The translations under genes and the position numbers were made by a program. Below the pieces are notes generated by a model. It did not search any database and was not told the origin of the DNA. It worked only from the letters and a program-made list of their open reading frames with translations. DNA of 26,141 bases from a virus. Of the stretch, positions 3,501-17,859 are shown one piece after another; within the stretch, counting starts at the first letter, position 1, and each line of letters begins with the position of its first letter. Location of the stretch: the IMG/VR virus record IMGVR_UViG_3300027710_000117, positions 1 to 26,141 of that record. One strand, written 5' to 3'.

Positions 3501-6500
3501 TTAGCCTTTGTTTTGCAACGACTCAATCAATTTTTGTTGCTCATCTACCTTGGCAGACAACTCTTGAATAGCCTTTGTAAGCACAGCAATGTAGCTTGGA
3601 TAATGAATTGTTTTAAACCCAACCTCATCGCCAACTTGCCAGTTTGGTTCCTCATAAACCAAAGATGAGTCTAGGCCAATTAAATCCTCTACCTCGTCAG
3701 CAATAAAGCCGTAACCTTTTTGATGCTTGGGATCGGCTTTCAGCTTATACGACACAGGCCGCAACTGCTTAACAAACTCAAGACCAAGGTCAGCTTCTGC
3801 AATTTCTTCTTTTAGGCGAACATCTGATGGGCTTGTTGTCTGTATTGTAAAAGTAACAGTGTTGCCTGATGCTGATGAGCCAACATAAGCACCAGCAATA
3901 CCCGTAGACGTAGAGCCAAGAAAATTGATGATGCCGCTACTAGGTGTTGCTGAACCACTATTAGCAGCCGCAGTAGTAAAAGCCCCGCTTAGTGATACCC
4001 AACCGCTACCTGACAAATAGAAGTTAGAGCCGGGGGCTGTTGCAGTTAAGTCCCCGGAGGTCAAACTTAAAGACCCACCAAGAGACAAACTACCTGATGT
4101 GGTTACAGTGCCTGATAACGTAATGCCGGACACAGATCCTGTGCCACTAACAGAAGTGACAGTGCCACCTCCACCACCAGCAGGAGCAGCCCACTGACCG
4201 TCATTTCTTAAAAAGAGAGATGTGTTTCCAGTTGGAACAGCTATTGAATATCCGTTCCAAGCTATACGGCCAACCAACAATAAAGATATACCACCAGCAT
4301 TGTTAACCGCTTCTAAAGCAGAGCCTGCTGAATTTGATGTGGTAAAAAATCCTCCCGTTTGACCACCTTGACCAACAACACCAATTCCCGGAACACCAAA
4401 ACCATTATTTCCAATTCCAATCACGCCAATATTGTACAAAGAGCCTGAAAATGAAAATGCGTAACCTAAAACACCAGCCCTAACTTTTCCGGGTGCGTCT
4501 GTTACTGCTTGAGACAACGATGAATAGTCAATAGAAAAAGAAACGCCATTAATAACAACTGGAATAGCAGAAGGATTTTGACCAACAAAAACAGCATCGC
4601 CATCTGTGTTGATGTCACCTTTAAACAAAGCATTGCCAGCAGTGTCAATAGTAAAGTTGGGTACACCAGATTTTGCACCGACAATACCGTTTTCAGTAAT
4701 GGCAATACCAGAGCCGCTTGTCACAACGCCTGATGTGTTCCAAGCAATAGAGCCAACTTTGATTCCGCCCAAGTCTTGCGGGACGATTGTTCCCGTCAAA
4801 ATGTTTGACGTTGTTTTGCTAACCTTGTCAGCAACGTCAATGTAAAGACCATTAACATCTGCTTGCAAATTGGCTACGTTACCTGACTCGCTGTTAACTG
4901 GCGACCAATTAAACGCACTGCTTGTTGGCGACCTTGCAGATGTGCCCAACTCATTGCCAACAACGTATGTGAAGTAATACGTTCCCGCCGACAATTGTAG
5001 GTTTGTAAAGTCGTAGCTGGCCCCATTAGTGGCACTTGTTCCTAGTGGAGTAGATGCTGTTTGCAGCACTTTCCATTCGTAAGCGGCAGGGCTTGCGCTA
5101 GTTGAGTAATACAACGTACCAAAAGTTACGCGACCAATTGCAGGGACTACTATTCGCACGACAAATGTTGCTGGCGTAGTCGATGGGCTGCTAGACACCA
5201 CTGTTGGCGTTGAAAGCGCACTGAAGAAAATGGCGCTTGGAATGTCGCTGTTAGGCACTGGCGCATACTGAGTGATGCTGTAATCATCGTACACAGCCGC
5301 GCTGTATTCGTTCATTTCCAGCCTTGCACCCAAGCTACCGTCAGGCAAAGACGCTTCGTTTACCTTGACCACACGAAACAGCTTGTTGCTCCAACCGTAG
5401 TCTGCATTGGTTACGCTAACAACAGCGCCAGCATCAACTTGGATGCCGTAATAGGTTGTGCTGAAGCTAACAATGAGGTCTTCACGGGCTTGCTCAAGAA
5501 TTCGGTTAGCAAGGTATTGCGCTTGCACAGAATCGTTGCACAGGTCATAGGTAACGCTATATTTGTTTGTTGGCTCGTTTGGATAAAGCAAACCTGATGG
5601 AGTAGCAATGTTGACAAAGTTAGGCTGATCCCTTGCGCCCTTGTCGGGAAACTTTGCCTCTACTTGGTTGATAGACTGCGTAATGTCTGTTGCACTAACC
5701 CGCACCTCGCCAATGATGTTGTCATCGTCAAAAGCGTAAACGGCTGTTTCTGATTTGTTAATGACAATAGACCACTGACCAAGAGCAGCGTTGTACGCCA
5801 TCCAAGAGTCCGCGCAAGTCATTATCTTGTCAAGGTTGTTTAGCACTGGCTGACCAGCATCAAGCACACCGTTCATGCGGTATCGGGCTTGCGTAGCAGA
5901 GCCACCACCAGAAGGTGTGTATGTGATCGTTTGATCTGCATATGCGTTCAACGCTGTGGCAGAACTTGCATTCACAAAAGCAGCATCTACAGCGCCGCCA
6001 TATGCCGCATTGGTAATGTAGTCATACCAAACATCTCCCGGTTTTGCTGCGCCAGTGCTGTTAAGGTAGTGCTTGGCATAAAACGTAATTGGCGACAGGT
6101 TAGTTGTGCCAGCGTCTTGGTTGTAGTTCAGCTTAACGATTGCAAAGGCCAAGCCATTCATTTGGCGACTGCTAGAAGGCCACCGCAAAGCCGCATCAAT
6201 GTCAGCGCCGCCCATGACCACGTTAGGAGCAGATGCGCCGTTTAATGGCGTGATAGTGCCAGCAGCAGTGGATGTGTACAGATTAATGTACAAGTTGTTG
6301 TTAATCTTTGTGTCTACGTTGCCCGCTTCGTCAGTCAGGCTAACAACCTTGGTCTGGTCTGTGCCATCAAAAGTAACAAGCCTATCGCCGTAATAAAACT
6401 TGGTGCTGTCAAACGTAAACTGCCCGTTAGGACTGACGCAAGACACAGCAACAACGTAGTACATTGTTTTTTGATCAGTAGACAACACAGCGTCCACAAA

Positions 6501-6737
6501 CGTACCGCCAAGATAAGCGTCACCGTACACAATCGGAATTGCGTTAATGCTTGATGGTGGCACTTGCTGCCTTGTGCCGCTGTCTTGTGGGCCTTGTCCA
6601 CTTTGCCCAAAGACTCGGCTAACAATAAGCGATACAGCAAAGTTAACAGCAAACGCAGCAGCCGTAAGCGCAAAAGAAGCCGCGACCCCTGCTGCTGTTA
6701 CGCCAGCCGCCGCAGCGACAATTAATGTTCCGACCAT
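3501..6737 (-). CDS. J-like tail tip protein with C-terminal S74 intramolecular chaperone
   Basis: This 1078-residue protein sits in the lambda J position, after the tip proteins. Residues 1-45 are Ala/Val-rich and hydrophobic, as in J-family N-termini. The middle includes hub-like segments (ITQSINQVEAKFPDKG; RILEQAREDLIVSFSTTYYG) and Fn3-like beta domains. About residues 860-920 are a Gly/Ser/Thr-rich shaft (GTVTSVSGTGSVSGITLSG). Residues 971-1078 match the peptidase S74 chaperone domain: SDVRLKEEI, then GFIADEVEDLIG, then a terminal coiled coil (IQELSAKVDEQQKLIESL). S74 domains fold a trimeric fibre and then cleave themselves near the Ser-Asp. So this protein appears to combine tip hub and side/central fibre in one chain. 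GGAG lies just before the start; it is 3 bases after the GNAT stop. Confidence 0.88.
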   Translation of the reverse strand: MVGTLIVAAAAGVTAAGVAASFALTAAAFAVNFAVSLIVSRVFGQSGQGPQDSGTRQQVPPSSINAIPIVYGDAYLGGTFVDAVLSTDQKTMYYVVAVSCVSPNGQFTFDSTKFYYGDRLVTFDGTDQTKVVSLTDEAGNVDTKINNNLYINLYTSTAAGTITPLNGASAPNVVMGGADIDAALRWPSSSRQMNGLAFAIVKLNYNQDAGTTNLSPITFYAKHYLNSTGAAKPGDVWYDYITNAAYGGAVDAAFVNASSATALNAYADQTITYTPSGGGSATQARYRMNGVLDAGQPVLNNLDKIMTCADSWMAYNAALGQWSIVINKSETAVYAFDDDNIIGEVRVSATDITQSINQVEAKFPDKGARDQPNFVNIATPSGLLYPNEPTNKYSVTYDLCNDSVQAQYLANRILEQAREDLIVSFSTTYYGIQVDAGAVVSVTNADYGWSNKLFRVVKVNEASLPDGSLGARLEMNEYSAAVYDDYSITQYAPVPNSDIPSAIFFSALSTPTVVSSSPSTTPATFVVRIVVPAIGRVTFGTLYYSTSASPAAYEWKVLQTASTPLGTSATNGASYDFTNLQLSAGTYYFTYVVGNELGTSARSPTSSAFNWSPVNSESGNVANLQADVNGLYIDVADKVSKTTSNILTGTIVPQDLGGIKVGSIAWNTSGVVTSGSGIAITENGIVGAKSGVPNFTIDTAGNALFKGDINTDGDAVFVGQNPSAIPVVINGVSFSIDYSSLSQAVTDAPGKVRAGVLGYAFSFSGSLYNIGVIGIGNNGFGVPGIGVVGQGGQTGGFFTTSNSAGSALEAVNNAGGISLLLVGRIAWNGYSIAVPTGNTSLFLRNDGQWAAPAGGGGGTVTSVSGTGSVSGITLSGTVTTSGSLSLGGSLSLTSGDLTATAPGSNFYLSGSGWVSLSGAFTTAAANSGSATPSSGIINFLGSTSTGIAGAYVGSSASGNTVTFTIQTTSPSDVRLKEEIAEADLGLEFVKQLRPVSYKLKADPKHQKGYGFIADEVEDLIGLDSSLVYEEPNWQVGDEVGFKTIHYPSYIAVLTKAIQELSAKVDEQQKLIESLQNKG

Positions 6738-8411: not shown

Positions 8412-10487
8412 TTAAGCCCTTCGTCCGTTTGTTGCCAACTGCTTGTTAGCGTATTGGTAGCCAGCCCAAATGGTGTTGCTGCTTTCCAATAGCTTAGTCT
8501 CAAACGACTTCACATCAATGGCGTTAATGTAGTTGTTGGTTACGTTGGTTTGACCGCCCATTGCTGAACCAAGTTGGTTGTTTGGAATAACTGTTCCATT
8601 TGTTCTTGGCACAATTACTTCAGGGCCACGCTCACCAACCATGTAAGGCATCCCCGCATCAACAGGGCCACCATTAGCTCTTGCGCGAGGATTGAAGACG
8701 CTTTCAGATATGCCGCCAGTATCACTGTAGCTAGAAACAGCAGTAGCGCCAGCAAAGTTAAACATACTGCTGAACAAGCTAATCATTTGTGCGCGTAGCT
8801 GGATGCGGATCATGTCTTGGATAATGCTGCGCGTCAGGTCTTTAAACGACAGCTTGCCAGTGCTGACAAACTTGTCTAACGCACTGGTCATGTTACCTAA
8901 CAACGACTCAAAAATTTGAGCGCCGTTTTCCATTTGAGTTGGAGCAAACGCAAAAAATTCTTCTAGACGCTTGTTAAAACCTTTACTTGCGTCACCCTCT
9001 TGCATCTCACGCATCACACGGTTACGCTCCCGTGCCAACTCAATTGCTTTTTCGGCAAGTTGGTTTTGATTCTTTATGAGTTGTTCACGATCAGCCTCTA
9101 ACAAGTTTGTCTCTTGCTGGATGGCCCTAATCTTGTCTTCTTGCTGTGTGCGAATGTTAAAAATATCAATCGCCAACTGTTTGTCTTTTTCGCGCAGCAA
9201 TCTTGTTTGCTGTTCGTAATTAAAGATTGTTCGCTGACGATCAAGCGACAAAGATTCAAGCGTTTGGCGTTCTTCAAGTTGTTGATTGGTCTTAAAGTTA
9301 AGAGCAACTGTTTGATTGCGTATCTCGCCAATCTTTAGTTCGTTTTCGCGCAAACGTGTTGCTTCACGTTCAGCGTCAGCAGCCAATTGCTTCTCAAGCC
9401 TAGCAGCTTCAGCAGCCATGCGCTTGGCTTCTCTTTCAGCTTCTAACCGTGCTGCTTTGGCTTCAGGGCCTTCGCCAACCTTTGTGCCGCGCAATGGGCC
9501 GCCTTTGCCGGGAGGCGTTACAAAGTCTGATCTTCTTGTAGCCCCACCGGGGTCACCCATAATTTGTGCTTGCAGCCTATCAAGTTCAAGTCTGCGCTCA
9601 ATATTTCTTGCTTCGTATCGCTTGTTTTCTTCTTGTGCTGCTTTTATGCCTTCAGTGAATAAAATTTTTGTGCTGTTAATCGTGTGTTCAATCTCGGCAT
9701 TAATTCCCTTAAAGATAAAAATCAAATCAGTAGCCAGCACAGCTACGGTTTGAAACACAACTTTAAATGCGGAACCAAATATGTTGGACGAACCTGAAAG
9801 CGTATTGAAATATTCAATGGTTGCAAGTAATGGTGGGCCTAATTCGGTCACCAACACAACCGCCAAATCACGCGAGTGTTTTTCAAAGATGCCAACAACA
9901 TCAGCAGCATCCTGAAATGCTTTGGCTTGGGCTTCAGCAAAGACACTTGTTTCTGACAAACTTTTAGCCATGCCAACAAAGTCAACGCCCTTTGCGGCCT
10001 TGCCAAAAATCTCCATCGCCATTGCGTTACGGGTTATTGGGTCTTCAACTTGACCCAATGACTTTATAAGTTTGTTTTGCAATTCATCAATACTGAGATT
10101 GCCAACATCCTTAAGCGTAACGCCAAGCCTTGCCATTGTCTGTTGCGCTTCAAAACTACCTTCAGCAGTTTTATCCACAAAGCCAACAAAGGATGACAGC
10201 ATCTTTGCAGCGTTACCAGCTTCGCCGCCGTTGTCTTGCAATGCGTTACGCAGTTTTAAAACAGTACCAACAGCAACGTCATTTGCTTTGGCGAGATCAA
10301 CCACTTCATCGGCGTAATTTAAAGCGGCAATGCTTGCGGCTACCAATGCTGTAGCTGCAATCTTTCCTGATTTTTCCGCAGCCTCGCTAAATTGCTCTAG
10401 CTTTTTGGTTGCGCCATCAATGCCACGGACAAACTCAGCACTGTCAATGCCAAGCATTACGCCCAATCGGGCAATCATATTAGCCAT
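8412..10487 (-). CDS. Tail tape measure protein
   Basis: The 691-residue protein begins MANMIARLGVMLGIDSAEFV, then 'VRGIDGATKKLEQFSE', the usual tape-measure opening. A hydrophobic/Ala-rich helix follows (residues 40-60). A long charged coiled coil covers about residues 340-500 (LEAEREAKRMAAEAARLEKQ and similar). The C-terminal part 'FESLLGNMTSALDKFVSTGK...FKDLTRSIIQDMIRIQLRAQM' matches the lambda-family tape measure C-terminal domain. It follows the frameshifted chaperone, with an 8-base overlap (ATGGCTAA). At roughly 1.5 angstrom per residue this length predicts a tail of about 100 nm, an inference from the family rule. Confidence 0.95.
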   Translation of the reverse strand: MANMIARLGVMLGIDSAEFVRGIDGATKKLEQFSEAAEKSGKIAATALVAASIAALNYADEVVDLAKANDVAVGTVLKLRNALQDNGGEAGNAAKMLSSFVGFVDKTAEGSFEAQQTMARLGVTLKDVGNLSIDELQNKLIKSLGQVEDPITRNAMAMEIFGKAAKGVDFVGMAKSLSETSVFAEAQAKAFQDAADVVGIFEKHSRDLAVVLVTELGPPLLATIEYFNTLSGSSNIFGSAFKVVFQTVAVLATDLIFIFKGINAEIEHTINSTKILFTEGIKAAQEENKRYEARNIERRLELDRLQAQIMGDPGGATRRSDFVTPPGKGGPLRGTKVGEGPEAKAARLEAEREAKRMAAEAARLEKQLAADAEREATRLRENELKIGEIRNQTVALNFKTNQQLEERQTLESLSLDRQRTIFNYEQQTRLLREKDKQLAIDIFNIRTQQEDKIRAIQQETNLLEADREQLIKNQNQLAEKAIELARERNRVMREMQEGDASKGFNKRLEEFFAFAPTQMENGAQIFESLLGNMTSALDKFVSTGKLSFKDLTRSIIQDMIRIQLRAQMISLFSSMFNFAGATAVSSYSDTGGISESVFNPRARANGGPVDAGMPYMVGERGPEVIVPRTNGTVIPNNQLGSAMGGQTNVTNNYINAIDVKSFETKLLESSNTIWAGYQYANKQLATNGRRA

Positions 10488-11336
10488 CGTTTTTCACCTT
10501 AAACCTGTCTTTTACAAATCCCGGTGCTTGGCTTAAGTAGGCAAGCAAGCTGTTGTTTGTTGCCTCTTTTTGCGCTTCTGGCGGCAACGGAGGATAGAGG
10601 TAATCATAGGCTGAACCCGCAACATTGGCTAGTGTATAAGGTCGTGATTTTGAATCGCGAACATAGTTAAACACACCAGTTATAAGCGTTCCAAGCATTT
10701 CTATTGTCTTGTGATTTCCAATAACCCCGTCCCCGTACATTGTCTGAAGCCGCGCCATCGTTATCCCATCTAGCGCCGCAATTGATTCGGGTGTATGCCC
10801 GTTAAAGATTAAAGCTGTTTCAACTTGAGTCTTTAACGAGCCAATCAGTTTCCCCGAGTTTCCTTGTAGTTAGGACTGATAACTTCACCAATCTTTTCGC
10901 ACAACGCCAACTGAACATTCAAAGGCCACTCAGCCTCAATGTCTTCGTAAGTAATGTCGTTCAGCGTTGCGTCAGCATCTTCTGGAACAAGCAACTTGAT
11001 GTATTCAACAATCCTAGCCTCGGTCAACGCCTTGTTTCTGGCAGCTTCGCGCAACGACTTGCCTTGCACCAGCACATCGTTTTCCAAAAACTCAAAGCCA
11101 GATTCTGTGGCTTCTGGCGATTCGCGGAATTTCTGCAAAGGCTCAACAAGCAATTGATAAATGCTTTCAATCTTTGCTTCGTCAGGATTTGTTATGCGCG
11201 TGTAAATCGCGTCAGACTCTGCAACCAAAGGCACACGGACTTTAAACGTAAAGCCGCCAAGTTCAAACTTGCGAGTCAGAATTTCTCGGCGCATCTTGTC
11301 ATAAGTTGCACCAAATGCGTTGCTGAGTTTTGTCAT
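10480..11336 (-). CDS. Tail assembly chaperone G-T fusion made by -1 frameshift (285 aa)
   Basis: The upstream frame (ATG 11336) encodes 163 residues ending ...NYKETRGN-stop. Its last codons CGG GGA AAC TGA contain the canonical slippery heptamer G GGA AAC in the correct phase. Slipping back one base at AAC reads on as CTG ATT GGC..., and this frame is open with no stop through the ATG at 10758 to a TAA at 10480, adding 122 residues (ending ...FKVKNDG). This is the G/GT arrangement known from lambda and many siphoviruses, located just before the tape measure as expected. The ORF at 10480-10758 is therefore the T part, not a separate gene. The products help the tape measure recruit tail tube subunits. 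Confidence 0.9.
10845..11336 (-). CDS. Tail assembly chaperone, short (G-type) product
   Basis: This is the unshifted product of 163 residues, beginning MTKLSNAFGATYDKM. It has the features of the family: an early 'RKFELGGFTFKVRVPLVAESDAI' beta segment (short motif FTFKVRVP), then helices with 'EATESGFEFLENDVLVQGKSLREAA' and a C-terminal 'LNVQLALCEKIGEVISPNYK'. It starts with an ATGA overlap on the gp10-like gene. Most ribosomes should stop at the TGA at 10845 and a minority should frameshift, giving an excess of G over G-T. The ratio cannot be read from sequence. Confidence 0.88.
   Translation of the reverse strand: MTKLSNAFGATYDKMRREILTRKFELGGFTFKVRVPLVAESDAIYTRITNPDEAKIESIYQLLVEPLQKFRESPEATESGFEFLENDVLVQGKSLREAARNKALTEARIVEYIKLLVPEDADATLNDITYEDIEAEWPLNVQLALCEKIGEVISPNYKETRGN
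10848..10854 (-). promoter_or_regulatory. -1 ribosomal frameshift slippery heptamer GGGAAAC
   Basis: The heptamer fits X XXY YYZ (G GGA AAC) in the zero frame and directly precedes the TGA of the short product (10845-10847). A Shine-Dalgarno-like AAGGA lies at 10861-10865, six bases upstream of the heptamer, which could act as a stimulator as in dnaX. I see no strong downstream hairpin. Confidence 0.9.
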
Positions 11337-11887
11337 GTTTTTGCCCTAAATTTTGCAATGTATTTTCGTAGACCTTCAGCCAACCTGTTCACAGTTTCTT
11401 GTGATTGACTTTCTAACGCTGGTCTTAGGTATGGCTGTGCTGGCATTTTACCCGTACCAAACTCTTGAGCAATAGCCCTTGCATCGCTTTTAAAGCCCTC
11501 AAAGGACTGTGCTTGGTCTTTGGTTGCGCCTAGCTTAATCATGCGCCTTCTGGTGCGTTCTAGCCCTTTGCCTTCGCTCATGGCTCGCATCTTCTTGCCA
11601 GAGGCTGTGGTGACAGCAGCAATCACCGCATCATTGCCTGTGATGTACTTAGAACGCCTATCTTTGCTTGTGGGTCTTCTGGCTTCAACTTGCAACAGTA
11701 ATTGCAAAGCGCCTGTATCCACTGGTGAATTTTGTTGGGCCAATGCCAGCACGGGTTTCATTGCATCCCTTGCAGCAGGGATCAAGATTTTGCTACGGGC
11801 TTTTTTGTCGCCTATCTCTTGAGCGAGTTCGTCAAAGACTTTGATAACGTCACCAAGACCTTCTAGCTTAATGGTAACGCCACCCAT
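11333..11887 (-). CDS. HK97 gp10-like tail completion protein
   Basis: The 184-residue protein opens with 'MGGVTIKLEGLGDVIKVFDEL' type sequence (short motif LEGLGDVIKVFDEL), then 'LAQQNSPVDTGALQ' and 'FGTGKMPAQPYLRPALES'. These 'xPVDTGxL' and 'R/KMPAxPFLRPA' motifs are the signature of the HK97 gp10 family, which helps complete the tail or neck. It lies after the tail-tube genes and just before the chaperone gene, whereas it more often lies before the tube, so the order is somewhat rearranged. One base separates it from the upstream stop. Confidence 0.88.
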   Translation of the reverse strand: MGGVTIKLEGLGDVIKVFDELAQEIGDKKARSKILIPAARDAMKPVLALAQQNSPVDTGALQLLLQVEARRPTSKDRRSKYITGNDAVIAAVTTASGKKMRAMSEGKGLERTRRRMIKLGATKDQAQSFEGFKSDARAIAQEFGTGKMPAQPYLRPALESQSQETVNRLAEGLRKYIAKFRAKT

Positions 11888-12116: not shown

Positions 12117-12323
12117 TTACTCTGTTGTATTGACTTCTTCAATAACCACCACAGAGGCAGTTACGTTGTACTTCTTCAGCAAAGCCAAAGCAATTGCTTC
12201 GGCTGTATCGGGTTTAGCTGTGGCTTTTGCAAGTTCATCAGCGTCAACCACCAAGCCACGGGCAACAAGTTCAATGTCGCCGTAGCTGGTCACAATTGCT
12301 TCGATTGCGTCTGAGACTTTCAT
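12117..12323 (-). CDS. Hypothetical protein (68 aa) after the tail-tube pair
   Basis: The likely start is the ATG at 12323, which overlaps the stop of tube protein 2 as TGATG. An in-frame ATG at 12377 would run 54 bases into the tube gene and is rejected. The product starts MKVSDAIEAIVTSYGDIELV and has an acidic, helix-rich composition with 'ELAKATAKPDTAEAIALALLKKY'. The function is unknown. Translational coupling to the tube gene suggests a tail assembly role. Confidence 0.65.
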   Translation of the reverse strand: MKVSDAIEAIVTSYGDIELVARGLVVDADELAKATAKPDTAEAIALALLKKYNVTASVVVIEEVNTTE

Positions 12324-12841
12324 CAGTTGTTCGACCAGCCGTACTGGTTGCCTCGCGGATGAACAGTGAATGTGCATTTAGCTTCTGCCCCCGGTTGTGC
12401 GTCAATTTGGAATTGACCCACGCGACCGTTAAAAGCGTAAGCAATGGTGTTTGCGCCTTCTACTGCTGCAACCACAAAAGTGCGATCAACAACACCAGAG
12501 TAAGCATCAGAACGAATTTGCAACAAGGCTGTATCAGCAGGGTTCCAAGCAGCCGTAATGGTCATGCTTGTAGGAGCCGCTTGCACAGGAATCTTGTCGC
12601 TTTGACGAGAGCCAGCAACACCGAAACTGGCAACCGCATCGTCCTGACCAAAGGCAGGGATTGCCTCAACAGGAACAGCAACACCAGCAGCGCCTGTACC
12701 GCCAGCAGAAGTACCAACAATGGTGGCAACTTGAGCAGACCAGACAGACAGATTAGCTGTAGTCAGGGGTGTTGGCGTAGCCGATGATTGCATAAACAGC
12801 GATGCGCTAAAACCGGGAAGAACTTTTGCAGGGATAGCCAT
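12323..12841 (-). CDS. Tail tube protein, paralogue 2
   Basis: The 172-residue protein begins MAIPAKVLPGFSASLFMQSS and ends FTVHPRGNQYGWSNN. It is a close paralogue of the protein at 12851-13345. A 48-residue block (about residues 55-102, from PVEAIPAFGQDD to WNPADT) is identical between the two. The N-terminal variable part carries an extra Gly/Ala-rich stretch (VGTSAGGTGAAG). The location between the terminator/completion proteins and the chaperone, the size and the strong expression signals (AAGGAG five bases before ATG) fit a tail tube (lambda V-like) protein. The fold itself is inferred. Confidence 0.75.
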   Translation of the reverse strand: MAIPAKVLPGFSASLFMQSSATPTPLTTANLSVWSAQVATIVGTSAGGTGAAGVAVPVEAIPAFGQDDAVASFGVAGSRQSDKIPVQAAPTSMTITAAWNPADTALLQIRSDAYSGVVDRTFVVAAVEGANTIAYAFNGRVGQFQIDAQPGAEAKCTFTVHPRGNQYGWSNN

Positions 12842-12850
12842 GATGACTCC

Positions 12851-13345
12851 TTATGCGTTGTTAGACCAACCGTATTGGTTGCCACGGGGATGGACGGTAA
12901 ATGTTGCCTTGGCTTCAGCGCCGGGAGCAGCATCAATCTGGAACTGGCCTACACGCCCGTTAAAGGCGTAATAAACGATGTTTGAACCCTCGGTAGCCGA
13001 GATGATAAAAGTGCGGTCAATCACGCCAGAATAGGCATCTGCTCGCATCAACAGCAAGTTGGTGTCAGCAGGATTCCATGCCGCAGTGATGGTCATGGAA
13101 GTTGGAGCAGCTTGAACAGGGATCTTGTCAGATTGACGCGAACCCGCTACGCCGAAACTGGCCACAGCATCATCTTGACCGAAAGCAGGGATTGCTTCCA
13201 CAGGAATGATGTTGCCGCTAACAGCAAGAGGGGCCACGCTAGCGACCAAGGACAACTGTGCAGTAGTCAAAGGAGTAGGTGTGGCTCCGGGCTGTGCGTA
13301 CAACGCTGCCGTAAAACCGGGAAGAACTTTGTTTGGTAAAGCCAT
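12851..13345 (-). CDS. Tail tube protein, paralogue 1
   Basis: The 164-residue protein begins MALPNKVLPGFTAALYAQPG. It matches its neighbour at 12323-12841 nearly end to end, including the shared terminal motif HPRGNQYGWSNN. It has AAAGGA before the ATG and lies 37 bases after the preceding gene, so it may start a strong translation unit. Despite identical protein over the core 48 residues, the DNA of the two copies differs at more than twenty positions there, all silent. It is probably the main tube subunit or one of two, but which dominates is not known. Confidence 0.75.
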   Translation of the reverse strand: MALPNKVLPGFTAALYAQPGATPTPLTTAQLSLVASVAPLAVSGNIIPVEAIPAFGQDDAVASFGVAGSRQSDKIPVQAAPTSMTITAAWNPADTNLLLMRADAYSGVIDRTFIISATEGSNIVYYAFNGRVGQFQIDAAPGAEAKATFTVHPRGNQYGWSNNA

Positions 13346-14820: not shown

Positions 14821-15864
14821 TTAAGTCTCAATAGAACGAACACCAGCAAAAACATCACGCACAGTGCTGACCATACGCTTTTCAGCATACATCTGCACAA
14901 AGCCGGGAGTTGTCTGTTCCATTGCCTGAACGGTCATTTCTTCCACATCAGCAATGGTCATAAAACGGGGCCAGTTAGCAAGGTACATTGACTTGCAGCC
15001 CACAGTCCCTGCTGCATCCAAATATGGGTTTGGAATTACGGGGAATCCATACACATGGAGCAGCGAACCAGCTTCAGCCGAGCCAGTTTCAACAAAAGAA
15101 TAACTAGAACCGCCGTGAGCATAATTACGCAAAGTTTGAATGGCTGTTGGGTGCATCATCCAAGCAGTACCGGGCATAGACCAGTATTGCGATGGCAACG
15201 CATTTGCCATTGCCGACAAGACTTCTGCTTCAAGGCCACCAGTGTTGTTGTAGCCAACAGTGCGGATGGTGTGCAAGCCGTTTGTGATGGCTGTACCGCT
15301 TGTACCATAAGCAGCCGCAGCACCAGCAGCGCCGGGGTAGCTGTTGAGGCCACGCAAACCATCAATGCCACCAGTTGATGTGGTAGTAGTGCCAGCTTGG
15401 TCGTTATTCAGGCCGCAAGATGCGCCTTCAAGTTGTGCAAATTCCATCATCAAGTCTTCAACCAATTCGGCTTGCAGACCATTGATGTCAGTCAGAACAG
15501 CGGTACGGACAGGCATTTGCGCCGTGATAACACGGGTAGGCATTTGCCAAAAACTTGTGTCGATGTTTGGTGAACCACTGTTGGGGTTAATTGTGTAGCC
15601 CCAAGGGTTTGTGCTGTTTGCAGCGTTACCAGTTTTGGCAACAAACTGAACTTCAGAATTGCCGGGAGCCTTAATAATTCGTGCGCCTTGGCGAAACGGG
15701 TTTGCATAACGCAGCGCAGCGAATGCGTCATCAAAGTAAGTGCGACCACCGACATTCAAGCCTGAACCAGTGATAGCAGATGCCTCGCGCAAGTCAATCG
15801 TGACTCTATCGCCAGTTTCCAATGTTTGCTTAAACCCAGACAGGATGCGTTCGGTAATGGTCAT
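14821..15864 (-). CDS. Second HK97-type major capsid protein paralogue (347 aa)
   Basis: The start chosen is ATG 15864 (MTITERILSGFKQTLETGDR), with AGGAG five bases upstream; the ATG at 15900 would lie inside the preceding gene and lacks such a site. The protein matches the capsid protein at 16510-17859 along its whole length after that protein's N-terminal coil. Shared landmarks include GGRT, ALR..NP.R, WGY.I, P.RTA.L.DI.GL.A..V.D, NNDQA and the terminal EKR..S.VRD..AGVR. It has no N-terminal scaffold-like delta domain. It may form a minor capsid component (for example pentamers) or a decoy copy. Confidence 0.8.
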   Translation of the reverse strand: MTITERILSGFKQTLETGDRVTIDLREASAITGSGLNVGGRTYFDDAFAALRYANPFRQGARIIKAPGNSEVQFVAKTGNAANSTNPWGYTINPNSGSPNIDTSFWQMPTRVITAQMPVRTAVLTDINGLQAELVEDLMMEFAQLEGASCGLNNDQAGTTTTSTGGIDGLRGLNSYPGAAGAAAAYGTSGTAITNGLHTIRTVGYNNTGGLEAEVLSAMANALPSQYWSMPGTAWMMHPTAIQTLRNYAHGGSSYSFVETGSAEAGSLLHVYGFPVIPNPYLDAAGTVGCKSMYLANWPRFMTIADVEEMTVQAMEQTTPGFVQMYAEKRMVSTVRDVFAGVRSIET

Positions 15865-15872
15865 AAAGACTC

Positions 15873-16472
15873 CTAAATTGATGACTTTTTTAGCGCCCAA
15901 TACGCTTTAAGAGATTCTGATCTTTTCTTATTGGCTGCTGGTTTTTGCACGATGCCAAGACTATTCTTGTTCCCGAGCAGCTTCTGTGATCTTTTTAGGT
16001 TTGATTCTATTGTGTTTTTAAAGCCCAAGCGACTTTTATTTCCAACAGAAGCCAAGCCAATGTTTGCCTTGTGTGACTCAGATAAAGTCCGGCCTGTTAT
16101 TGTGTTTTTTCTTTTGTCGGCAGATTCTTGGTTGAACATAGGATTTACAAAGTTGGCTTTCTGTGAGGCGCTCTTTTTAGCCCTCCAAGACTCAGATGGA
16201 ACCCATCCAGAGGTTCCTTCGCCTCCATCAGTCAAATTAACCAAAGGAATGCCAATGTCTTTAAAGCACTGAATCAATAATTTTTCATGCTCCAGTGCTT
16301 CATGCTCTGTATTCCACTTACAAAGTATTTCAGAAGTAAAGCCATGCTTACGAACAACATTATTCCAATGGTTATTACGTTTTGTCTTTACAAGATGCCG
16401 CCTTCCTTGTCCCTTTCCAATATAGAAAGGCTCAAGCGTGTCGGCTTTGAAATGTATGTATGTGTAAAACAT
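15873..16472 (-). CDS. GIY-YIG homing-type endonuclease with NUMOD3-like C-terminus
   Basis: The 199-residue form starting at ATG 16472 (MFYTYIHFKADTLEPFYIGK) begins right at the catalytic domain. Tyr3-Thr4-Tyr5 corresponds to GIY, and Tyr17-Ile18-Gly19 to YIG, followed by Lys-Gly-x-Gly-Arg-Arg and a later 'NTEHEALEHEKLLI' with the metal-binding Glu. The C-terminal half carries NUMOD3-type DNA-binding motifs (GRTLSESHKANIG, SRLGFKNTIESNLKRSQ). Such enzymes spread by cutting sites in conserved genes; here it lies between the two capsid genes. An alternative start at 16502 would pass through the terminator hairpin. The stop TAG forms part of the next gene's Shine-Dalgarno (TAGGAG). Confidence 0.85.
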   Translation of the reverse strand: MFYTYIHFKADTLEPFYIGKGQGRRHLVKTKRNNHWNNVVRKHGFTSEILCKWNTEHEALEHEKLLIQCFKDIGIPLVNLTDGGEGTSGWVPSESWRAKKSASQKANFVNPMFNQESADKRKNTITGRTLSESHKANIGLASVGNKSRLGFKNTIESNLKRSQKLLGNKNSLGIVQKPAANKKRSESLKAYWALKKSSI

Positions 16473-16475
16473 AAC

Positions 16476-16500
16476 AAAAAAGGGGGAGGCAAGCTCCCCC
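16476..16500 (-). terminator. Intrinsic terminator after major capsid protein 1
   Basis: The minus strand reads GGGGGAG, a 5-base loop, CTCCCCC, then six T. The 7-bp GC-rich stem with an immediate T-run is a textbook rho-independent terminator. It begins 9 bases past the capsid stop (16510) and ends just before the nuclease ATG. Confidence 0.88.
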
Positions 16501-16509
16501 ATCACAACT

Positions 16510-17859
16510 TTACGTTGCTGTCCCGGTTGATCGGTAGCGCACACCCGCGTTCGGGTCGCGAACACTGGAGCAAAGCCTTTTTTCGCCGAAAAACGTAATA
16601 AAACCGGGGAGGGTCTGATCGTAACGGCGCATAACCATGTTCAGGCGATCCACGATGGTGTGGAAGCGGCTGAAATCAGCAAAATACATTGGGTACAGGC
16701 TGTTAGTGCCAGCAGTGCCAGTAGTAGTTTGCGATGGCGTATCAAGATACTTGTTTATCACAACGTCAAAGCCGAGCATTTGACCAATGATGCCATCAGG
16801 ATTCAACGACTCAGTAGAGTTGAAGATTGGACGACCATTTGTGTCTTGCAGACCACGGATAGCTTGAGCCAAGATTGGGCTAACCATAAACTTGGCGTTG
16901 CTTGTCCAATACTGCTGTGGCAAAGCGTAGATCAAATTGATAACGTCTTTGTACTGGATGTTGTTAGCACCCACAGTGTTGGCGTTGGTGGTGATCTGGT
17001 CGTAAGTAGCCAGCGAATGCAGACCGCTTGTAGAGCCAGTGCCAGATGTGCCGAAAGCAGCAACAGACGATGTACCACCAGTGTATGTAGCGTTAGAACC
17101 AGCGTACTGATCCAAGCCACGCAGACCGTTAGTGCCGCCGTAAGGGTTGCTTACGGACTGAGCAGCTTGGTCGTTGTTTTGAATCATCGACAGGGCTTCG
17201 CTCTGAGCGAACGAGGCTAACATATCGTCAACAACAACAGCTTCCAAACCATCAATGTCATCCAGAGCAGCAGTACGGATTGGGAACTGGACGTTCAAGT
17301 CTTGCAGAACCAATTGCCAGATGCTTGTGTCTTCAGTGGTGGCTGCACCGTTGTTCTGAATCGCATAGCCCCATGCTTCACCGGGGTTGCCTACGCGCAC
17401 GCGAAACTGGTAAGAAGAACCATCAGTTGCAACAGTGCGAGAAACACCGCGCATTGGGTTCAGCAAACGCAGAGCCGTGAAAGTAGGATCGTAGCCAGTA
17501 CGACCACCCTTGCCATCACCGCCAGCGGTCAAAGCAGAGGCTTCTTTCAGGTAGGCGTCCATTTGGCTTTCGTCTGCAAAGATTTGCAGTTCTTTTTCCA
17601 TGCGGCTGTTACCTTTGTAAAAGGTAGACAGTTGCTCACGCACAGAACGGTTCACATCTTGGCGAACAGTCTTAGCGGGTGTGCGAATGAACTCAGGCAT
17701 TTGAATGGAGGCAACTTTGGCTTCCAGAGCAGATACCATTTCAGCCATTTCAGCTTTGACAGCTTCAACAGCAGCGGGGATTTTGGCTTCTACAGCCGAG
17801 ATGCCTTCAGCTTGTTTAGCTTCGATGGCATCCAGTTTTTCAAGAATAACTTGGGACAT
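16510..17859 (-). CDS. HK97-fold major capsid protein 1 with N-terminal scaffold-like domain
   Basis: The 449-residue protein begins with a coiled coil (about residues 1-55: MSQVILEKLDAIEAKQAEGI, then heptad-like Ala/Glu/Val repeats), as in the HK97 delta domain, followed by a linker and 'TPAKTVRQDV'. The capsid fold follows, with 'KGGRTGYDPTFTALRLLNPM', 'WGYAIQNN', 'FPIRTAALDDIDGLEA' and the C-terminal 'FFGEKRLCSSVRDPNAGVRY'. In the family the prohead protease removes the delta domain during maturation; the protease gene is just upstream (3-base gap). AAAGG precedes the ATG. A strong terminator follows it. I cannot tell from sequence whether crosslinking occurs. Confidence 0.92.
   Translation of the reverse strand: MSQVILEKLDAIEAKQAEGISAVEAKIPAAVEAVKAEMAEMVSALEAKVASIQMPEFIRTPAKTVRQDVNRSVREQLSTFYKGNSRMEKELQIFADESQMDAYLKEASALTAGGDGKGGRTGYDPTFTALRLLNPMRGVSRTVATDGSSYQFRVRVGNPGEAWGYAIQNNGAATTEDTSIWQLVLQDLNVQFPIRTAALDDIDGLEAVVVDDMLASFAQSEALSMIQNNDQAAQSVSNPYGGTNGLRGLDQYAGSNATYTGGTSSVAAFGTSGTGSTSGLHSLATYDQITTNANTVGANNIQYKDVINLIYALPQQYWTSNAKFMVSPILAQAIRGLQDTNGRPIFNSTESLNPDGIIGQMLGFDVVINKYLDTPSQTTTGTAGTNSLYPMYFADFSRFHTIVDRLNMVMRRYDQTLPGFITFFGEKRLCSSVRDPNAGVRYRSTGTAT

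Follow-up and report, generated by a model that had tools for sequence, protein, structure and literature searches.

Tailed-phage tubes are, in the usual description, built by stacking a single protein. The locus studied here carries two adjacent genes for tube-like proteins, and the question is whether both supply subunits to one tail tube and how they have stayed matched. The analysed stretch of DNA (the window) is a 26,141-base virus record from IMG/VR, in which the minus strand carries a cluster of head and tail genes. The cluster includes terminase, portal, protease, two capsid genes, connectors, a tail terminator and two tube genes, as well as small genes, a gp10-like protein, chaperone candidates, a tape measure and tip genes. 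The names terminase, portal, protease, chaperone and tip are presumptive, being taken for instance from gene position or from the annotation of phage P19250A. The features relevant to the tube genes are as follows.

12851..13345, minus strand: tail-tube protein copy 1, an open reading frame of 164 amino acids with a predicted gpV-like fold; this form also occurs alone in single-copy relatives
12323..12841, minus strand: tail-tube protein copy 2, an open reading frame of 172 amino acids with a predicted gpV-like fold, belonging to a separate clade
13061..13204, minus strand: 48-residue core of copy 1 (residues 48-95), covering loop β2-β3, strand β3 and the start of helix α1
12530..12673, minus strand: 48-residue core of copy 2 (residues 57-104), with 27 codons and no residues different from copy 1
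12857..12904, minus strand: C-terminal identical run of copy 1 (residues 148-163), from the pairwise alignment
12326..12373, minus strand: C-terminal identical run of copy 2 (residues 157-172), from the pairwise alignment
12680..12742, minus strand: stretch specific to copy 2 (residues 34-54), lying in the β1-β2 loop and containing two small insertions
12847..12852, minus strand: Shine-Dalgarno sequence AAGGAG of copy 2, overlapping the copy 1 stop codon; duplex energy -8.8
8412..10487, minus strand: open reading frame of the tape-measure protein, 691 amino acids
13383..13802, minus strand: tail terminator candidate upstream of copy 1 (PHROG 347, E 9.7e-4, a weak match)

Copies 1 and 2 are full-length homologues over 163 columns, so the identity of their cores is not due to chance. 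The protein alignment shows an identical 48-residue run (PVEAIPAF...WNPADT), the DNA of which differs at 30 bases in 27 of 48 codons, every difference being silent. The identical C-terminal run of 16 residues, TFTVHPRGNQYGWSNN, is likewise encoded with eight base differences, all silent. The N-terminal parts are dissimilar, with nine extra residues in copy 2 that fall in two gaps around TSAGGTGAAGV, and the copy-2-specific stretch 34-54 is a helix plus loop in the predicted model. A preliminary description of this DNA had claimed an identical core and C-terminal motif with only silent DNA differences, divergent N-termini and a Gly/Ala-rich insert in copy 2, and the alignments bear it out on these points. 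For the whole genes, the NG86 estimates were dN 0.18 and dS about 2.5 (near saturation). A fully identical core was found in four of 103 two-gene genomes, with 22-29 codons different in each of the four; the mean number of core residue differences between copy 1 and copy 2 is 2.96 within a genome and 7.30 across genomes.

AlphaFold monomer models of copy 1 (mean pLDDT 79.5, pTM 0.78) and copy 2 (mean pLDDT 75.2, pTM 0.70) both contain the bent β-sandwich with one helix seen in solved tube proteins. The best solved matches of both are tubes of the lambda gpV type, with Z 11.9 and rmsd 3.1 over 120 residues for copy 1, and Z 13.4 and rmsd 3.5 over 144 residues for copy 2; lambda gpV and the YDC107 tube share the fold of both copies. 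The gene order (terminator, tube, chaperone/tape measure) is that of gpV-type tubes, the terminator being assigned by its weak PHROG 347 match. The same order of the tube region is found in relatives, and the downstream tape measure is annotated in P19250A. At the sequence level, Pfam PF18906 (Phage_tube_2) scored 17 bits with copy 1 and 15.4 bits with copy 2, both below the curated cut-off of 27 bits, and neither copy is filed in this family. PHROG 158 (major tail protein) matched copy 2 (E 5.2e-4) and not copy 1 at a threshold of E 0.001, and a sequence search of solved structures gave no match at E up to 1. The predicted folds clearly identify both copies as tail-tube proteins of the lambda gpV type, the identity proposed in the preliminary description. 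Lambda gpV has a C-terminal Ig domain, whereas the copies described here (164 and 172 amino acids) have no room for one.

The history of the pair was traced in relatives. At least 258 loci were collected from five viral scans, one genome scan, P19250A and the window itself; after 44 duplicates had been taken out, along with 28 loci that were incomplete or odd, 186 usable loci remained, of which, among the matches listed, 106 have both tube genes and 80 have one. The scans took the 80 best loci per query and two of them started from single-copy tubes, and these counts are biased by query and best-80 sampling and do not represent population frequencies. The two-gene relatives come mostly from environmental DNA surveys. 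One annotated phage record matched copy 1, that of Methylophilaceae phage P19250A (KX815270), which resembles the window in gene order, in having both capsid genes and in a tube protein 70% identical to copy 1, but has a single tube gene. Protein lengths are nearly constant: copy 1 has exactly 164 amino acids in 104 of the 106 two-gene loci, copy 2 has 171-173 in 103 of 106, and the tube protein of single-gene loci has 163-166. Three pairs with a copy 2 of 238 amino acids were left out of the 106 loci, giving the 103 genomes used in the tests below. They belong to a type of about six contigs (L050, L051, L250-L254), in which about 70 residues are inserted near residue 18 of copy 2, and the gene is cut off in L051. 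In two further loci, L063 and L081, copy 2 is apparently split by a frameshift, from either a broken gene or a sequencing error.

In a phylogeny of 76 tubes, the copy 2 proteins make up a single clade of 27 rows (support 100/99) that holds 27 of the 28 sampled copies, and the single-copy tubes are intermixed with copy 1. The sole sampled copy 2 of the 238-residue type (L050) lies outside this clade. The tree shows a copy 2 that, as far as the sampled proteins tell, descends from one old duplication, in agreement with the long-standing duplication claimed earlier. The single clade rules out independent duplication in each lineage for 27 of the 28 sampled copies and, together with the near-saturated silent sites, a recent duplication. 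When mapped on a phylogeny built from three adjacent genes, the number of tube genes (two or one) had to change four times, and starred branches forced three of these changes. Copy 2 has apparently been lost, or gained by transfer, several times. Because it is absent from 80 of the 186 usable loci among the matches listed, a tube of this family does not require it.

If the two genes evolved separately, copy 1 should match its own copy 2 no better than the copy 2 of another genome. Among 26 representative genomes, the identity between copy 1 and copy 2 in the core (here residues 52-99) was 0.889 within and 0.804 between genomes, and none of 5000 permutations reached the within-genome value. The corresponding values were 0.804 and 0.746 for the C-terminal part, and 0.568 and 0.555 for the N-terminal part. 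A sign test on disjoint pairs of the 103 two-gene genomes was used to limit the effect of shared ancestry. Within-genome matches exceeded cross matches in 31 of 44 pairs and fell below them in two, with 11 ties. By region, the ratio was 21:2 for the core, 21:1 for residues 126-163 and 8:10 for the N-terminus, and residues 96-125 showed a trend only (17:7, p 0.064). The ratio was 14:2 in a second set of 40 pairs and 25:2 in a third of 51 pairs; the sets overlap one another and their p-values are not independent. Changes at the same site in both copies were observed 54 times against 25.1 expected in 40 pairs, an expectation stratified by site and not by pair distance, so that the quartet (disjoint-pair) test is the better one.

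Trees built from separate regions conflict with one another. With N-terminal columns copy 2 is one clade without any same-genome sisters, and with core and C-terminal columns 15 same-genome sister pairs appear among 27 genomes. Residues that distinguish the two copies in all or nearly all genomes (16, 30, 33, 34, 36, 41, 96, 123 and 125 among others) sit between or beside the coupled residues 57, 63, 79, 85, 134, 140 and 148; residues 77, 84, 108, 133, 139 and 151 are coupled as well. Taken as a record of substitutions, these alignments show that the core and the C-terminal strands change in step in both copies and that the N-terminal part does not.

Gene conversion between the tandem genes was examined by five kinds of test: silent identity within and between genomes, concordant sites, quartets, codon-shuffled run lengths and locally conserved orthologues. 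In the core of the 103 genomes, four-fold silent identity between the copies was 0.363 within a genome and 0.334 between genomes, and no genome exceeded the 99th percentile of the between-genome values. Around concordant sites, within-genome paralogue silent identity was 0.359 versus a background of 0.354. In 37 cases where both copies of close relatives show the same change, silent identity nearby was 0.811 for orthologues and 0.405 for paralogues, and in only three of the 37 did either genome reach a paralogue silent identity of 0.6. The window and locus L017 provide an example: residue 84 is Met in both window copies and Leu in both L017 copies, with orthologue silent identities of 0.89 and 1.00 around this site and paralogue values of 6/15 and 7/14. 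Where orthologues are locally alike, 215 concordant cells stand against 59 swapped ones (cells that are not independent), and in none of the 103 genomes do the two copies share an identical DNA run longer than 29 bases, a length within the range of the codon-shuffled control. These results reject gene conversion as the main cause, and the silent-site, concordant-site and codon-shuffle comparisons uphold the earlier claim that the cores reflect neither a recent copy nor conversion. In a looser concordant set, orthologue silent identity (0.63) falls short of the 0.79 median for the pairs, and some of the concordant changes may therefore have entered together through recombination with another phage.

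Copies 1 and 2 of the same genome agree slightly less often in their silent codons than do copies taken from different close genomes, as if identity of the DNA were avoided. Identical codons within versus across close pairs were above in 6 and below in 27 of 40 pairs, and above in 9 and below in 32 of 44 pairs. When 162 shifted registers served as a control they pooled near zero, and single registers reached the same ratio in 22 and 19 of the 162. The effect is about 1% and the run-length tests are weak. Against avoidance, four-fold silent identity over all genomes is slightly higher within (0.392) than between (0.353) them, and identical codons amount to 0.471 versus 0.426 in a within-gene codon shuffle. 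We hold it doubtful, though conceivable, that in a large group of siphophages, most of them uncultured, ancient paralogues coevolve residue by residue at their common interfaces in a heteromeric tube, with selection also keeping their silent sites apart, a natural codon scrambling that would prevent recombination or deletion.

Both copies are under comparable constraint, with dN/dS values of 0.082 (copy 1) and 0.080 (copy 2) in 39 close genome pairs; dN is higher for copy 2 in 18 of these pairs and lower in 21. This comparison between copies and across relatives, proposed in the preliminary description as a check, reveals no relaxation, and the low ratios together with the in-step substitutions of the core and C-terminus agree with its claim of strong selection on the shared surface. 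The same text had named two findings that would speak against it, routine loss or breakage of one copy and relaxed selection. Copy 2 is indeed missing from many of the listed relatives, with at least three to four events of gain or loss, but the selection on it is not relaxed.

In the window, the Shine-Dalgarno energy of copy 2 (-8.8) exceeds that of copy 1 (-5.4) and is the strongest among the tube and upstream genes scored; a small gene reaches -8.6, a value that rests on a start inside copy 2. The median energy is -7.2 kcal/mol for copy 2, the strongest median among 16 gene classes, and -5.6 for copy 1. For the other genes, start codons were guessed from similarity to those in the window, and certain classes contain few rows. 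The site of copy 2 is stronger than that of copy 1 in 76 of 106 genomes, and in 105 of 106 the copy 2 start codon lies 11-18 bases past the last sense codon of copy 1. The stronger Shine-Dalgarno site weakly suggests that copy 2 is abundant, as Shine-Dalgarno strength predicts copy number poorly.

In the copy 1 model, the identical core spans a low-confidence loop (residues 53-82), the strand 84-89 and the start of the helix 95-106. Residues with pLDDT below 50 are 56-73 in the copy 1 model and 67-72 in the copy 2 model. By the proxy of model confidence only, both copies appear to have the long flexible β2-β3 loop that is a trait of gpV-type tubes. According to the review PMC8718954, this loop makes the largest ring-to-ring contact in most tubes, the lambda loop (residues 50-78) is dynamic in the monomer and mediates ring-to-ring growth, and changes of D61/D62 within it block tube growth. 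The core residues D58 and D59 are invariant in all 74 aligned sequences. Because its loop position and the invariant D58 D59 match the lambda loop with D61/D62, the identical core is most likely the ring-stacking part of the tube, judging by the model and by analogy with lambda.

Among neighbouring genes, the tape measure differs between the two kinds of locus. Its open reading frame has a median length of 808 amino acids when two tube genes are present (57 loci) and 597 when there is one (50 loci); with only loci of the same gene order compared (19 and 19), the medians are 680 (range 657-790) and 600 (range 575-653), respectively. It has at least 655 amino acids in 46 of 47 two-gene loci and fewer in 41 of 43 one-gene loci, and an alignment of 20 sequences places the extra length in the middle of the protein. 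The association of copy 2 with a long tape measure stems from only three to four independent changes, nearly always in one direction, and is not significant, so that we treat it as a lead. The gp10-like gene at 10845-11887 and its relatives occur in two gene orders, before or after the chaperone candidates. Two tail-tip open reading frames were inspected by eye: one of those at 639-2939 and 3501-6737 has a short collagen-like GPxGPQ run, and the C-terminus of the large one resembles a self-cleaving chaperone domain.

The two HK97-fold capsid proteins (14821-15900 and 16510-17859) are 38% identical over 346 residues, the second being without about 70 N-terminal residues. The preliminary description had linked the tube pair to this capsid pair as parts of a virion built from paired subunits. 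That link is a weak one, since each of the 89 loci that cover the region has both capsid genes, whether it carries two tube genes (49 loci) or one (40 loci), and residue coupling within the capsid pair is not significant (20:12, p 0.215), with less power at 38% identity. This null result indicates that coupling is not general for the paralogues of these genomes. Between the capsid genes, the open reading frame 15873-16565 resembles by eye a GIY-YIG homing endonuclease, and it has no Pfam match at E 0.1. It has strong relatives between the capsid genes of L046, L121 and L130 and weaker ones elsewhere, and this patchy placement makes it look mobile.

On balance, we favour a two-component siphophage tail tube with two gene-encoded subunits whose shared interfaces coevolve, a reading to which we give somewhat better than even chances. 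A tube gene of the lambda gpV type duplicated once, long ago, as the copy 2 clade shows. Copy 2 then acquired a longer β1-β2 loop and fixed residues in its N-terminal third and around residues 96-125, with loop β2-β3 and the C-terminal strands retained by both copies in the alignments. The former joins ring to ring in the tubes described in the literature, and the barrel strands, to judge from the fold, would connect neighbouring subunits of the same ring. When one copy changes at a site, the other acquires the same substitution through point mutations of its own rather than through DNA transfer between the genes, presumably because both kinds of subunit must fit the same neighbours. Copies 1 and 2 would sit in one tube, and copy 2 would probably be made in quantity. 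We infer that a tube rich in copy 2, whether its rings are mixed or alternate, is likelier than a single end ring, a preference based only on Shine-Dalgarno strength and the breadth of coupling, neither of which is decisive. The differing loop of copy 2 might provide a second surface on the tube wall or another local geometry, perhaps tied to a longer tail.

Other arrangements could leave some of the same traces. It is unlikely, in our estimate, that copy 2 forms one or a few special end rings (an initiator by the distal tail protein, or a neck ring) on a tube otherwise made of copy 1. Tube-fold end rings are known from contractile systems, where T4 gp54/gp48, Pvc5 and Afp5 are initiators, each a second tube-fold protein forming one ring at the baseplate. 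Contractile baseplate and cap chains are among the fold matches of both copies, and an end ring would explain coupling in the ring-to-ring loop, as rings of copy 2 would have to fit onto those of copy 1. Yet a ring needs only six copies, and the Shine-Dalgarno site of copy 2 is the stronger one in 76 of 106 genomes; the coupling includes residues 126-163, which from the fold would hardly lie at one ring face only; and many relatives build their ends without copy 2. Smaller still is the probability that the copies never touch and that a common third partner (tape measure, tail chaperone, terminator or Dit) drives parallel changes. Such a partner would yield the same residue coupling without co-assembly, and the tape measure does differ in length between two-gene and one-gene phages. 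The strongest coupling, however, includes the loop that makes ring-to-ring contacts in known tubes, and even this explanation requires both proteins in the same assembly pathway.

That the copies are alternatives, one a spare or used under other conditions and never in the same tube, seems very improbable. Copy 2 is missing from some lineages nested among two-gene ones, as a spare might be, but in 105 of 106 genomes it begins a short distance after copy 1 and has a Shine-Dalgarno site of its own, its dN/dS equals that of copy 1, and a spare would have no need to change in step. Conversion that keeps the cores alike has, to our mind, next to no likelihood: the 15 same-genome sister pairs among 27 genomes are its classical signature at the protein level, but the silent sites are at background (0.359 versus 0.354, with none of 103 genomes above the 99th percentile), the longest common run of 29 bases is within codon-shuffle expectation, and copy-specific residues are interspersed among the coupled ones.

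The lambda tube is built of one protein, gpV, unlike the two tandem tube genes described here. The contractile initiators likewise place a second tube-fold protein in one tail, but this protein is confined to the baseplate ring. In PMC8718954, the SPP1 tube is described as containing two forms, gp17.1 and gp17.1*, in a ratio of 3:1, the second of which is dispensable and arises when a translational frameshift extends the protein by a C-terminal domain. Copy 2 in the window is not such a product, being a separate full open reading frame with its own start and Shine-Dalgarno sequence, and it differs in an N-terminal loop and not by an added C-terminal domain. In type VI secretion, Hcp paralogues assemble in one ring, according to PMC13323088 and the title of PDB 9vne. 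The Bacteroides Hcp heterohexamer in that entry belongs to the same fold family as both copies (Z 8.8-9.0). Hcp forms a bacterial effector delivery tube in which mixed rings have been seen, whereas mixed rings in the present phages are a proposal. Within the open-access literature searched, we came across no description of tandem tube-gene paralogues in a siphophage. What sets the present case apart from known two-form tubes is a tandem gene pair in siphophages with, on the evidence of the alignments, lasting in-step evolution.

If a conserved two-gene tube is confirmed, the rings of a siphophage tail tube would be heteromeric through gene duplication, as Hcp rings can be. The 103 genomes in which paralogue residues change together would constitute a natural experiment, providing a map of the tube residues that touch. 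Coupling without gene conversion would also make these phages useful for studying how the paralogous subunits of an assembly remain matched to each other.
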